Source: Datnioides undecimradiatus
Lineage: Eukaryota; Chordata; Actinopteri; Lobotiformes; Datnioididae
Direction: 5' to 3'
DNA: 64,000 nucleotides
NCBI GenBank assembly: GCA_008933995.1
Contig: WARS01000063.1
Span: forward strand, 1,700,822-1,764,821
Shown: in pieces, positions 35,179 through 57,800 of the stretch
Layout of the letters: every line of letters starts with the position of its first letter
Numbering within the stretch: position 1 is the stretch's first letter
Position numbers and translations under genes: made by a program
The notes under the pieces: model-generated
What the model saw: the letters and a program-made list of their open reading frames with translations, nothing else
The model's database searches: none
Told to the model about the DNA's origin: nothing

Positions 35179-38100
35179 TTAATCCGGATTTTCTGCCAGT
35201 TTTCTGATTTCCTCCAGGAGCTCTGAGAAGTTGGGCCGACCATGAGGCCTCTACACCGCCACCGAAGAACACGGAGAAGAAGCAGAAGAAGAAGGAACTG
35301 GGTGAACTGGTCCGTTATGATGAGAGAGCCCTGATGAGCCCCAAAGGTCAAACTCTCGATAACTGAGGTGAGGTTTCTGGAGCTTTCAGACACATCTCAT
35401 GGTCTTCAGTGCTCAGATAGAAATCCTGACACTTGATCTGCTGAGGAAGACCAGCACATGCGTCTGAAAGCCTCAGAAGCGAGTCGACCTCACGATGAGG
35501 CCATGAATATAAGAAATGAATGAGTGAGTGTTTCAGCGAGTACCTCGTGCCAGCAGCGGTACATGATGGCGTATAGCGGCTGCGGCGCGCGGTGCGGCCG
35601 GTACAGCCGGACTCCTCTGGTGACGTCATTGACCACGTCCAGGTTGGTGCAGTTCTCAAACGGGGTCCGACCCTCGGCGTAGATCTCCCACATCACCACA
35701 CCTGCACACACACACACACACACACCAATAAACCTCTGAACTGTGGGAAGGCATAGTTATGATTTAAGGTGATATAAAGACAAACAGCTGCTCCTGGTAT
35801 TTCTGCTTTCTGATCAGCGAGTGGATGGCGGCGGTGGACCATGTGGTTCCTCACCAAAGGACCAGACGTCTGACTTGCTGCTGTATTTACTGTAGTGCAG
35901 AACTTCAGGGGGAGACCACTTCACAGGGAACTTGGCACCACTGGAGCTGGTGTACTGGTTGTCCAGGACGTACCTGCAAACGTGAACACGGAGTCAATGC
36001 GAGCAGTAATAAACAAAGCCGTGGTTTGGTTTTCTTAAAGGAACAGTTCAATATTTTGGGAAAGATGTTTATTCAGTCCACAGTGAAGAGTTCGTTTAAA
36101 AAGGTCAGAATCAATCTCATAACTGAAATATAAACCCATCTGACAGTTAGCTTAGCTTAGCACAAAGACTGAAAACAAGAGCAAACAGCTAGCCTGCGTC
36201 TGTCAGCTCTCTACCTTCGTCTCTATAGCTCTTTACCTTCTTCATGCTGCATTGTGGTGTTTCAGTGTAAAAACTGAAATGTGAGAATCATAATTTGTAG
36301 TTTTAAAATGTTTTTTGGGGGCAAATGATCTCTTCAGCCGAGAAACAGCTGGTTACAGTTTAGACAAACAAGCTAGCTCTTGCTTCATATTAACCAGTAG
36401 AAAGCAAAGAAGTTTGCGCCCCTAAAATGTCAAACTTTTCCTCTGAAACTCCAGATGACGTGGTGTGCACCTGGTCATCCCGAAGTCGCTGACCTTCACC
36501 ACATTGTGCTCGTTAACTAGACAGTTCCTGGCAGCCTGGAGGACACACACAGAACCAGAAACCTCAGACAAATGTGCACCTGAACCGCCAACATGTGTCC
36601 ACTTAATTATATCATCTTTAAATACAGATACATTCAAATATTTCATTTGAAGGCCAAATTGCTGCACATAGAAAAGCTCTGCCTTTAGTCAAACATTCAT
36701 CAGCATGATCAATTACCGCCACTGTGCTAAGCTAGGCTAGTTAGCGGGTAGCAAGAAAAAAAGTGGCTACATTAGCTTCAGCTAAGGCTACCAGTTAGCT
36801 GACAGTTTACATTTTTTTACCCTAAAATAATTATTCTGTGGTTGAACAATATGTACTGTGAGATAAGATGTTAAAAGGTCTCATCCTAAATCATTTTTAC
36901 CAAATATTTGGTAATTAATTACTTTTTAAATTAAGCTTATACACGTAAAACATATAAAGATCATATGAAATATAATTAAGTGTTACAGAATACACAAACT
37001 AACAGTGAAGTTAATTGTAAATGTAACTAAATACATTTACCTTAATACAAGTACTGTACAAATTAAAGGTACTTGTGCTTTACGTGAGTTACATCCGTTT
37101 CATTCTTCTTCTCAGGCACATATATTGCACCTTGTTCTCTTCTACATTTGTCTGACAGCTTAAGTTTTAGTTACACTCTAATCTTAATACTCTTCTTGTT
37201 CAGCAAGTCTGAAACACTCACAGCGACTCACCAGGTCTCTGTGGATGAATTTATGTGCTTCCAGGTACTCCATCCCCTCACAGACGTCCTGGCACATGGA
37301 CAGAAGCCACGCCTCCTTCAGAGTCCTGCCCCTCTGCCGCAGGAAGTTCAGCAGGCAGCCGTTCTCCATGAACTCGGCCACGATCAGCAGGGGGCGCTGC
37401 TGCAGGCAAACGCCATACAGCTGCACCAGTTTAGGGTGGCAAAGCTTCCTGGGAGACACAACACACACACACAGTTTCACTTCCTGTTAACGACAAGGAC
37501 ATTGCCGAAACCATTTTCCTCAACTCCTCGCTTCATACTTTCCCCACCTCCCCTCCTTACATCATGACCTTGGCCTCCTCGATGAAGTCCTCCTCAAACA
37601 TGGCTCCCTCTCTGATGGCCTTGATGGCCACTTTGTGCTGAGCCTTCCACTTGCCGAGCCTCACCAGGCCGAACTGGCCGCTGCCCAGCTCCTTCATGAA
37701 GGTCAGTTCGCTGGGGTTGATCTCCCACTTTTCTGGAGGGAGGGTAATAGATGGCAGCAGGAGGTTGGATGGAAAAGAGGGAGATGAATACAAAGTCTCC
37801 AGTCAGTCTGATCTCAAGGCCCCTGTCTGTACTAGACCATTAGGGTTGTGGATCATGTTGGGGCTTATTATTAATCATATATGATTATTATTATTATTAG
37901 ATACTGTATTGTTAAAATCTTTAGGTTTTATAAAGCAAGAGATCATCAGCATAGAAAGACATGTTATGCTAATTTCCAGGCTTCAACACTCCAGTATGCT
38001 TCAGTTAGGTTGTAAATAACTCAACAAGTAAAAAAGAAGACATACACAATAAACATGGGATGTAAATAATCAACATTTTCTTCTTTTTTAACACTTAGGT

Positions 38101-54800: not shown

Positions 54801-57800
54801 AATGGTCCATTTTGGAAGAGAATGAATGAATGAATGAATGAATGAATGAATAAATAAATAAATAAATAGGTACATTCATGTTTTTGACTTAATGTTGCAG
54901 CTGTTAAAGGTGAAGCAAAGTCATTTAAGTTATAAAATCAACACTGTGGAGTAAAAGGCCAGTCCCTCTGAAAAGTAGCAGAGTGGAAGTAGAAAGTATC
55001 AGAAGATGGAGAACAAGTACCTCAGAATTGTACTTAAGTACAGTAATTGGATAATTTTAGTACTTTTATGTATGAAACATTACATATAACATTATTATGC
55101 AACTCGATTAATAAAAAGTTAAATTAGTTTGTAATAAATTGAACATCTCAGGTTTGGTTCTTTGAGATGTTCTCACATCCTCCAATAAGCCTCGTCCCTG
55201 TCAAAGGAACTGAAGTTTAATTAAAGAGCATCTGACTGTGAGATGAACTGGGCGATTGTGAGCGTAACTTCCTGTTATTGTTGTTATGTTTGTTAGGGAC
55301 GCAGGCGCAGCTATAAAACATTACCATATCAAGGAGACAAAAGCCTCGCCTCCGCAGTTTTACCTGGCTGAGAAATACCTGTTCAACTCCATCCCTGAGC
55401 TGATAGAGTACCACAAACACAACGCGGCAGGTAAACAACAACAAACAACAACATCCACTGTTTCTGTCCTGACCAGATGAGTAAAGCAGAACTGGAGTCA
55501 TTAAAGTTCATCCTGAGGGGAAATGAACATCTAAACCAGATTTCATTCTGACTAATAGTAGCTGAGATATTTCAGTCTGAACCAACCCTCAGGTCACAGG
55601 TCCTCATGTGTCTGGATGCTTCCTGTTGTGAATGAATGTCCACTTTAAAACAAACATAAATGATCTTTATGTGTGGCATCATCAGGGATCAGGGGTAGCT
55701 TGGGGTTTCGAAGCGTGTTTGCATCAGTTACTTCTCAATAGTCTCTGTATTAACTTCCAGCACTCCTGCTGCTTGTCCAAACTGATCACCTACTGTGGAC
55801 ACCACACTGACCCGTACAACCACACATTAAAAACCCAAACTGACCCTTTGAGGTAGCTAGCTAAAGCTCATCATCTAAACGTTCATACCTTCTGAGTATG
55901 TCTCATATGCCTTGTTGTTTTCTGTAACTTAGGTCTTGTTGCCAGGTTGCGGTATCCTGTAGGGAAACAGGACAAATCTGCTCCGTCCACTGCCGGATTC
56001 AGCTACGGTGAGTCCAAACACAGCCCTGCACAGTCCTTTTTGTAGCCCATGACATCTCCTTACCCTCCTTTTCTCCATTTGCCTCCCTCCAGAAAAGTGG
56101 GAGATCAACCCCAGCGAACTGACCTTCATGAAGGAGCTGGGCAGCGGCCAGTTCGGCCTGGTGAGGCTCGGCAAGTGGAAGGCTCAGCACAAAGTGGCCA
56201 TCAAGGCCATCAGAGAGGGAGCCATGTTTGAGGAGGACTTCATCGAGGAGGCCAAGGTCATGATGTAAGGAGGACTTTGAAACATCAGGAATAACAAAGA
56301 CAAGGATGAGAAACAGGAAAGAGATGAACGGACAAAGTTGGAGATTCACAAAAGAACCAGTCTCTGCTTTAACAGTCATTGACCTAATGTGGGAAAGGTC
56401 TGTTTCTTTGACCTATTCTGCCCCCTATTGAGGTTTAATACGAGCTGCAACATCACTGCATCATCTTTGTGTTCTCCCAAACACATTTGCCTGCAATTGG
56501 ACGATAATGTCACATTTTCCCAAAGTGAAGCAGTAAACTAAGTGCCATGTTTACATTATTCAGTCCGCAGCTGAAAAGGTTTTGTTGGTTGTTATGTACT
56601 AGTCCTGAGTCCATCAGAATCAGAAACCAGTCTGTCATTTGTGTTTCTTCTTCAGGAAACTGTCTCACCCTAAACTGGTGCAGCTGTACGGCGTTTGCAG
56701 CCAGCAGAAGCCCATTTACATCGTCACAGAGTTTATGGAGCATGGCTGCTTGCTGAACTTCCTCAGGCAGCGGCGGGGCAGCTTCAGCCTGGGGTCCTTG
56801 CTCAGTATCTGCCTGGACGTCTGCGAGGGCATGGAGTACCTGGAGGCCAACGGCTTCATCCACAGAGATCTGGTAACTTCAGGTTCTAGTTCTCCTGACG
56901 TGATTCTGTTGCCACCATAGCAGGAACATTTTACCCCAGAGCTCAGGAACTTAAGTACTAATATGTGGAAATATGAAAATGTCAATTTTCAGTGGACAAA
57001 CTAGAATAATAAAATGATTTGTCTGGTTTCCATAACTACCTGTCTTGATGCTTTTCTTATGTTGGTCTCTGAAAATGATGTTTGCTAATCACCTCTGGTC
57101 CTGAACCCAAACAGAGTACAGCTCCTTCTGTTTTTGGTCTCTGGGTTTTAGGTTAAGGCGGCTGCTCAAGGTATTGGACAAGTATTTTGGCATTGTTCAG
57201 AAAAGTGGGTTTCAAAAGTTATTTGAATTCATTGCCTGGGCACCATTAATGTCTGAGGCAAATTTCATGGACATCCATCAACCAGAGCTGGTTGAGATAT
57301 CTCAGTCCAGTTGAAAGCGGTGAACCAGCTGAAAGACAGACATTGCTAAAGGTTTGTTAAGGTATGTCAAATCTTCCTGCAGGCTGCCAGAAACTGTCTG
57401 GTGAATGAATCTCTGGTGGTGAAGGTGTCTGACTTTGGCATGGCCAGGTATGTTTACGCTATTTGTTTTATCCGTCGTCTTTCGTCTGCAGTGGCTGAAA
57501 AATGGCCTTTTCTGTCACGTTACAGTGTTGATGTGTGTTTTGCAGATACGTGTTAGACGACCAGTACACCAGCTCAATGGGGGCTAAATTTCCTGTGAAG
57601 TGGTCGTCACCAGAAGTCTTCAACTTCTGCAGATACAGCAGCAAGTCAGATGTCTGGTCCTATGGTAGGCACGCCATGACATCACCAAATCTTTGGAGAA
57701 TTAGCGTTATTAGGTAAATTAAGTATAAACACCTTAGACAACTCTCATTAAAGCTCCATCATTTCTCTGTGTCCAGGTGTGTTGATGTGGGAGGTTTTCA

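Follow-up and report, generated by a model that had tools for sequence, protein, structure and literature searches.

A single kinase exon identical between the inverted paralogues tec and txk of Datnioides undecimradiatus, probably through recent ectopic gene conversion

Introduction

Several pairs of paralogues have been reported to exchange sequence by gene conversion. For TLR1 and TLR6 of mammals, one region is more alike between the paralogues than between the orthologues, which was attributed to gene conversion (PMC2077338). The Nav channel genes of salamanders carry many tracts from 56 bp, some of which are linked to toxin resistance, and the table of that report gives 22 tracts, 19 of which keep differences, the three tracts without differences being 56-77 bp (PMC8476164). 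No paper on conversion between tec and txk was found among the titles listed in searches of the open-licence PMC literature, and a published account may still exist elsewhere. The locus described in this study lies in a window of 64,000 nucleotides (contig WARS01000063.1, positions 1,700,822 to 1,764,821, forward strand), in which txk and tec are arranged head-to-head with intact reading frames.

Results

Identity and structure of the two genes

The gene on the plus strand has the architecture of TEC (PH, Tec homology, SH3, SH2, kinase), and that on the minus strand has the architecture of TXK, i.e., a cysteine string in place of PH-Tec homology followed by SH3-SH2-kinase, as judged with approximate query sequences. 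The modelled parts are as follows.

35179..39837, minus strand: txk body as modelled, with SH3, SH2, linker and kinase exons K1-K6, the stop codon ending at 35179 (spliced frame open, 439 aa)
40518..40566, minus strand: txk exon with four consecutive cysteines, flanked by AG and GT, like the mammalian TXK cysteine string (tblastn with an approximate TXK N terminus, E 0.06; exon edges)
48802..52254, plus strand: tec N-terminal matches to PH (48802-48939, 49691-49801, 50379-50462), Tec homology (51175-51306) and the proline-rich part (52177-52254) (tblastn with an approximate TEC N terminus)
52261..58587, plus strand: tec body as modelled, from SH3 to stop (spliced frame open, 449 aa)

Neither a PH match (tblastn with the same TEC N terminus) nor PH or Tec-homology exons were found on the txk side. 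The names tec and txk, as predicted from this domain order, hold because tec has PH and Tec homology and txk has a cysteine-string exon with no PH found. Against the solved TEC SH3 (1gl5), the SH3 of tec scored 3e-22 and that of txk 3e-17. The best SH2-only structure for the tec SH2 was ITK, no TEC SH2 being among the matches listed, and the txk SH2 scored slightly better with BTK (2ge9) than with TXK (2dm0). Among the 60 of 61 PDB matches listed, none was named TEC or TXK. The SH3-SH2 part of txk was identical to human TEC at 102 of 171 positions vs 95 of 171 for human TXK (approximate reference sequences). No Rfam family reached the gathering threshold in 35000-60000.

A 192-bp identical tract around exon K1

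K1 is the first exon of the kinase domain and codes for the ATP-binding lobe. The two copies, and the tracts in which they lie, are located as follows.

37561..37732, minus strand: txk kinase exon K1, 172 nt, with glycine loop, lysine and alpha-C FIEEAK (splice sites, frame; motifs in spliced frame)
56093..56264, plus strand: tec kinase exon K1, 172 nt, its protein the same as that of txk K1 (splice sites, frame; motifs in spliced frame)
37552..37743, minus strand: the 192-bp tract of txk, putatively converted and the probable recipient, with the same bases as 56082-56273 (match extended exactly at both ends; inverted repeat)
56082..56273, plus strand: the matching 192-bp tract of tec, the probable donor (inverted repeat; exact extension)

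The two exons agree at every one of their 172 bases (172/172), and the identity extends exactly 11 bases into the upstream intron (CCTCCCTCCAG) and exactly 9 bases into the downstream intron (GTAAGGAGG), giving a perfect inverted repeat of 192 bp (37552-37743 and 56082-56273). The initial annotation had described the same identical exon, with about 11 and about 9 flanking bases and a diverged exon after it, and all of this was reproduced. A repeat finder reported arms of 200 bp at 99%, 18,322 bp apart, and the K1 tract was the only exact inverted repeat of at least 32 bp in a scan of the window that excluded low-complexity words. The absence of differences at 192 sites sets a 95% upper bound of about 1.6% divergence per site, or about 6% when restricted to the silent and free intron sites of the tract.

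K1 compared with the other exons

Synonymous divergence was compared exon by exon between txk and tec of this genome. No silent change was found over the 33 silent sites of K1, and each of the 11 other homologous segments (11 of 11) had a pS of 0.42-0.79 (pooled pS 0.65, dS 1.5) and a DNA identity of 48-79%. At silent sites too, similarity within the tract far exceeds that of the homologous sequence around it. Fourfold codons were identical at 19 of 19 comparable positions in K1 vs 49 of 97 outside it, and for the same amino acids, every codon of K1 would match by chance with a probability of about 1e-12. The next exon has diverged in both DNA (73% identity) and protein (74%).

37232..37448, minus strand: txk kinase exon K2, 73% identical to tec K2, dS 1.07 (exon-by-exon comparison)
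56656..56872, plus strand: tec kinase exon K2 (exon-by-exon comparison)

Over the aligned coding sequence, 927 of 1317 sites were identical; the longest identical run, at K1, was 176 sites, followed by one of 23, and the longest in 5000 column shuffles was 44, so that the observed run exceeds the permutation expectation. A recent duplication of the whole gene was rejected, as the 11 other segments have diverged.

Intron flanks

The match of 11 bp on the acceptor side is longer than in any of the remaining 131 pairings of a txk with a tec acceptor (maximum 7), and the match of 9 bp on the donor side is longer than that of all 131 other donor pairs (maximum 8). Because both flanks exceed all control pairs, intron DNA was probably part of the copied template. 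Beyond the tract, the txk and tec introns aligned with scores that did not exceed those of 300 shuffles. The four introns next to K1 contained no convincing remnant of an earlier K1 exon (best E 0.16), and on this ground the addition of a second exon, with the old K1 left behind, was rejected.

K1 in the rest of the genome

The 581-Mb assembly contained at least four DNA matches and at least four protein matches to K1 (E 0.001 or better), located in tec, in txk and in two further exons, one on contig C482 and one on contig C467, which were identified as those of btk and itk. The K1 of btk matches that of tec at 123 of 173 aligned positions and that of itk at 115 of 173, and their identity to tec/txk K1 is 66-73%. 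No relatives were found in scans of genome contigs and viral contigs.

Three further exact overlapping copies were present in the window (11716-11976, 40216-40469 and 45401-45759). As background for this element, three 60-kb stretches were used (left flank, right flank and contig C467). The right flank contained a copy of 98% over 321 bp, the left flank contained pieces of 30-77 bp at 88-94%, and none was found in the stretch of contig C467. In the same scan, two exact copies of at least 60 bp were present in the left flank (71 and 89 bp), and the right flank and the C467 stretch had none. The older, diverged copies point to an ordinary repeat, although all copies seen are on contig C5 and a local origin may still apply; the three copies were set aside as a case of K1-like local copying.

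Trees and diagnostic positions

The TEC and TXK proteins on which the direction and the trees are based are approximate mammalian reference sequences. The shared K1 protein is identical to human TEC at 52 of 58 positions vs 43 of 58 for human TXK, and it carries two of the five TEC-only states (M13 and R25); of the TXK-only states, all five are absent. By a rough hand calculation, the likelihood ratio for tec as the donor is about 4-5. In the tree without K1, the window txk grouped with human TXK (FastTree 0.92, UFBoot 64). In the K1 tree, a check of the kind put forward with the annotation, it grouped with the window tec, next to human TEC (support 0.66), and not with TXK. The tract and the remaining sequence give conflicting trees, both built with the approximate mammalian sequences; outside K1, the grouping of txk with TXK has a support of 0.92 in FastTree but 64 in UFBoot and 0.31 on K2-K6 alone. 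On K2-K6, the plus-strand gene was placed with TEC (0.93) and the minus-strand gene weakly with TXK (0.31). An inversion already fixed through K1, or a swap of gene halves, was not supported, the rear of the plus-strand gene being TEC-like and the minus-strand gene weakly with TXK. The window txk matches human TEC at 145 of 206 positions of K2-K6 and human TXK at 136 of 206, and its 46 diagnostic columns outside K1 comprise 16 TEC states, 14 TXK states and 16 that are neither.

Discussion

Based on K1 without a silent change, 11 diverged segments and copied intron flanks, DNA-templated copying is favoured, and it is very likely that a recent ectopic non-crossover gene conversion, or an equivalent DNA-templated copying of a short tract, replaced the K1 of one gene, most likely from tec into txk. 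Conversion between inverted paralogues about 18 kb apart had been proposed at the outset and is supported by the silent sites, the diverged exons and the flanks. If the DNA broke or a fork stalled in txk K1, repair would have used the inverted copy in tec, at a distance of 18 kb, as its template, and copying would stop where the homology does, just inside each intron by a few bases. Before the event the two K1 exons were probably only about 75% alike, as estimated from the other exon pairs and btk, and identical runs in the other exon pairs are at most 23 bp. Such homology is probably below the thresholds published for efficient recombination (PMC3966225, PMC3758752), and this hints that a template switch took place or that K1 was converted more than once. 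We infer the recency and the repair pathway from these patterns, and the conversion may have been a single event or a repeated one.

The direction from tec to txk is favoured and fairly likely, but not proven. The annotation had named tec as the probable donor; the TEC-only and TXK-only states agree with this, and the claim stays short of proof since txk is TEC-like elsewhere too. The TEC-likeness of K1 is modest evidence for the same reason. The reverse direction, from txk to tec, is unlikely: TEC-like states in K1 would be compatible with a source that is TEC-like in other parts, but the shared exon is closer to human TEC and has no TXK-only state. Recurrent conversion, in which K1 was homogenised repeatedly in fish with the latest event recent, is a form of the conversion explanation and not an exclusive rival, and we consider it possible, on the less likely side. 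It would explain recombination over about 190 bp without flanking homology, and there are precedents in TLR1/TLR6, where the same region was converted independently in nine mammals (PMC2077338), and in three gene pairs with concerted evolution over more than 100 million years (PMC2720389). On the other hand, long GC-biased conversion has left no clear sign, the GC3 of K1 (0.88) being little above that of txk K5 (0.87) and K2 (0.82-0.83).

Overwriting of K1 by a spliced tec message in RNA- or cDNA-templated repair would set the limits at the exon edges, and the tract is almost exactly one exon with a donor-side flank just one base above the control maximum; the acceptor flank is well above its control maximum, which makes this route very unlikely, an unspliced RNA template remaining compatible. 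Marginally less probable again is an artefact of assembly or polishing. A perfect repeat of 192 bp is a weak spot for short reads, but each K1 copy lies within its own unrelated introns, the window contains no N, contigs of 3.0, 6.0 and 9.7 Mb suggest long reads, and collapse requires copies that were nearly identical beforehand, which the 48-79% of the other segments does not indicate. Glycine-loop exons of kinases are conserved at the protein level, and extreme purifying selection on the DNA of K1 might be considered instead of copying; it was rejected and has practically no probability, because the K1 of btk and itk is so much less similar (66-73%) that DNA constraint is not the cause of the identity, and the fourfold codons identical throughout K1 are about half identical elsewhere.

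As a speculative and rather improbable extension, K1 of tec and txk may be a standing exchange exon in this fish lineage, i.e., an inverted pair of about 190 bp that lacks flanking homology and is rewritten time and again via template switching between the inverted copies and not by canonical recombination. Two immune kinases with different functions would in this way retain the same ATP lobe, and occasional crossovers would exchange their front halves, the one with PH and the one with the cysteine string. The earlier suggestion that the inverted arms could promote inversion is fair: a crossover within the repeat would turn around 18 kb of DNA and join each kinase's front part to the catalytic part of its neighbour. 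The ATP lobe coded by K1 is the part through which Tec-family kinases serve as drug targets, and gene trees of txk and tec that include K1 would mislead. An exact tract of 192 bp between paralogues with unrelated introns is also a clean natural case for minimal homology in vertebrate repair.

Compared with the systems described, the txk/tec pair resembles TLR1/TLR6 in that neighbouring immune paralogues on one chromosome have one region homogenised, but there about 300 aa of tandem genes are affected in nine species and here one 172-bp exon of inverted genes in one genome (PMC2077338). Short tracts within single exons of same-chromosome paralogues are shared with the salamander Nav channel genes and the Nav1.4 exons 26a/26b, but these two exons lie on the same strand (PMC8476164), whereas the K1 copies are inverted, their 192-bp tract carries no difference and no selective cause is known for it. 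In the conversion of GAF-A from TbrPDEB1 to TbrPDEB2 of Trypanosoma brucei, one domain was likewise replaced by that of a close neighbour, although those genes were very similar beforehand and the event concerns a single allele, carried by one strain and the lines derived from it (PMC2689650). BMP8A/B, DDX19A/B and TUBG1/2 are also old gene pairs with segments kept alike by conversion, but those pairs had to share a similar intron (PMC2720389), and the txk and tec introns are unrelated beyond 11 and 9 bp. Ectopic gene conversion is a known kind of process, of which K1 of txk and tec is a striking case.

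Results

The initial annotation had proposed a recent gene conversion of the first kinase-domain exon (K1) between two Tec-family kinase genes, probably from tec (plus strand) to txk (minus strand). The complete identity that it claimed for the exon was confirmed and extends, as it had stated, into both introns.

37732-37561, minus: txk K1, 172/172 bases the same as tec K1
56093-56264, plus: tec K1, 172/172 bases the same as txk K1
37552-37743 and 56082-56273: arms of a 192-bp perfect inverted repeat, K1 with 11 bp upstream and 9 bp downstream

Searches of the 581-Mb, 497-contig assembly returned each arm once, together with two further K1 matches on contigs C482 and C467, which were read as btk and itk from their peptides. 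The identical run covered 176 aligned sites (K1 and two neighbours), while the next longest txk/tec run was 23 and the longest in 5000 shuffles was at most 44. Silent differences in K1 were 0 over 33 silent sites (Nei-Gojobori), whereas pS in the 11 other segments ranged from 0.42 (SH2a, 10 sites) to 0.79 (pooled 0.65, dS 1.5), two of these segments being too divergent for correction of the silent distance. Fourfold codons sharing the first two bases were identical in 19/19 cases in K1 and 49/97 outside it. Past the repeat, local alignment found no relationship between the txk and tec introns (shuffles as good, n=300: 0.57 upstream, 0.11 downstream). With no difference over 192 bp, divergence of the two arms is at most ~1.6% per site (95% upper bound), or ~6% on the 33 silent and an estimated ~14 free intron sites.

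The segments of both genes were placed via homology and splice sites. The txk model has thirteen segments (39837 to 35179, 439 aa) and the tec model twelve (52261 to 58587, 449 aa); both frames are open with 0 internal stops, and the catalytic motifs looked for are present in both. The names were kept mainly for the domain layout.

48802-52254, upstream of the tec body: PH and Tec-homology matches (approximate comparison proteins)
40566-40518, minus: short txk exon with four consecutive cysteines, resembling mammalian TXK (match alone E 0.06, approximate query)

The same kind of approximate proteins gave no PH or Tec-homology match on the txk side. The solved TEC SH3 was matched better by the plus gene (3e-22) than by txk (3e-17), and in the SH3-SH2-linker tree support was 0.92 for the pairing of window txk with TXK and 0.85 for that of window tec with TEC. 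The raw SH3-SH2 identity of txk to human TEC was 102/171, slightly above the 95/171 to human TXK, and among solved structures its SH2 scored slightly higher to BTK than to TXK. The txk SH3 part (39837-39636, minus) is seemingly interrupted by an 80-bp intron (39780-39701) with the unusual donor GTTCTC, the next txk donor being GTCGGT; the tec SH3 is a single exon (52261-52382) without that intron. The two genes lie head to head (35179-58587), unlike human TXK and TEC, which are oriented head to tail on the same strand; the difference may reflect a gene-sized inversion between this lineage and human. With the K1 protein as query, four matches were found in the whole assembly at E 0.001 and were assigned to tec, txk, btk and itk. 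None at this threshold was bmx-like; the bmx gene may be absent, may lie outside the assembled sequence or may have diverged too far in K1.

Other repeats and neighbours in the window were as follows.

11716-11976, 40216-40469, 45401-45759: overlapping repeat pieces, 261 and 254 bp exact, 156 bp common to both
36146-36196 (txk intron) and 49092-49142 (tec gene): short match in inverted orientation at 88%, carrying GCTAAGCTAAGCTAA motifs
32267-32178, minus: serine/threonine-type kinase piece adjoining txk, which we take to be CDKL-like

The first repeat has an additional copy on the right flank (98%) and short pieces on the left flank (88-94%), and a 60-kb stretch from a different contig contained no copy; the copy at 40216 and the txk cysteine-string exon are no more than ~50 bp apart. 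The short inverted match reads like a dispersed repeat.

Discussion

Ectopic gene conversion between txk and tec, as initially proposed, is supported by the lack of silent change in K1 beside diverged segments elsewhere. Constraint at the DNA level was rejected as the cause because K1 of the sister genes accepts silent change: tec K1 matches btk of this genome at 123/173 aligned positions (longest exact run 13) and itk at 115/173 (longest 14). A spliced cDNA as template is argued against, since the template probably included intron DNA: the 11 matching bases at the acceptor side exceed the maximum of 7 among 131 other txk-by-tec acceptor pairs, although the donor side has a slim margin (9 against 8 among 131 pairs).

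The direction of copying is less firm, and the proposal of tec as donor and txk as recipient stands as likely only. Compared with approximate human and mouse proteins, the common K1 protein agrees with human TEC at 52/58 residues and with human TXK at 43/58; of 12 diagnostic columns, 8 show the TEC state, 2 the TXK state and 2 another. Outside K1, window txk shows 16 TEC, 14 TXK and 16 neither over 46 diagnostic columns, and window tec 18, 5 and 23, which makes K1 by itself modest evidence. A little is added by the family-unique states (TEC-only 2/5, TXK-only 0/5). Judged from these residues, tec is quite probably the donor.

The copying would have been a non-crossover event between inverted neighbours 18 kb apart. 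The longest uninterrupted identity in other txk/tec exon pairs is 23 bp, and reviews (PMC3758752 and PMC3966225) put the minimal identity for efficient recombination at 132-232 bp (or >200 bp) for mouse and 337-456 bp for human; ordinary recombination should therefore rarely start at K1. What remains is a rare event, a template switch between the inverted copies, or earlier conversions that had kept the two exons similar; any of these may apply.

K1 encodes the glycine loop, the VAIK lysine and the alpha-C FIEEAK region, as located by motif in the spliced frame. With tec as donor, txk would now carry the tec ATP lobe. A crossover within the 192-bp repeat would give each kinase the front half of the other; no sign of such a swap was found in the plus gene. 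Within txk kinase exon K2 (at 37400-37330, minus), a 10-residue stretch that reads differently in tec has an alanine at the position that we take, by comparison with BTK, to be the gatekeeper. Naturally occurring alanine gatekeepers are unusual, and this one, if so, would widen the ATP pocket of the probable recipient of the copied lobe.

The txk/tec exon adds a new case to a known process; what makes it noteworthy is a nearly exactly exon-sized tract between strongly diverged, inverted paralogues. For repeated earlier conversion, the closest published picture found is that of TLR1/TLR6 across nine mammals (PMC2077338).
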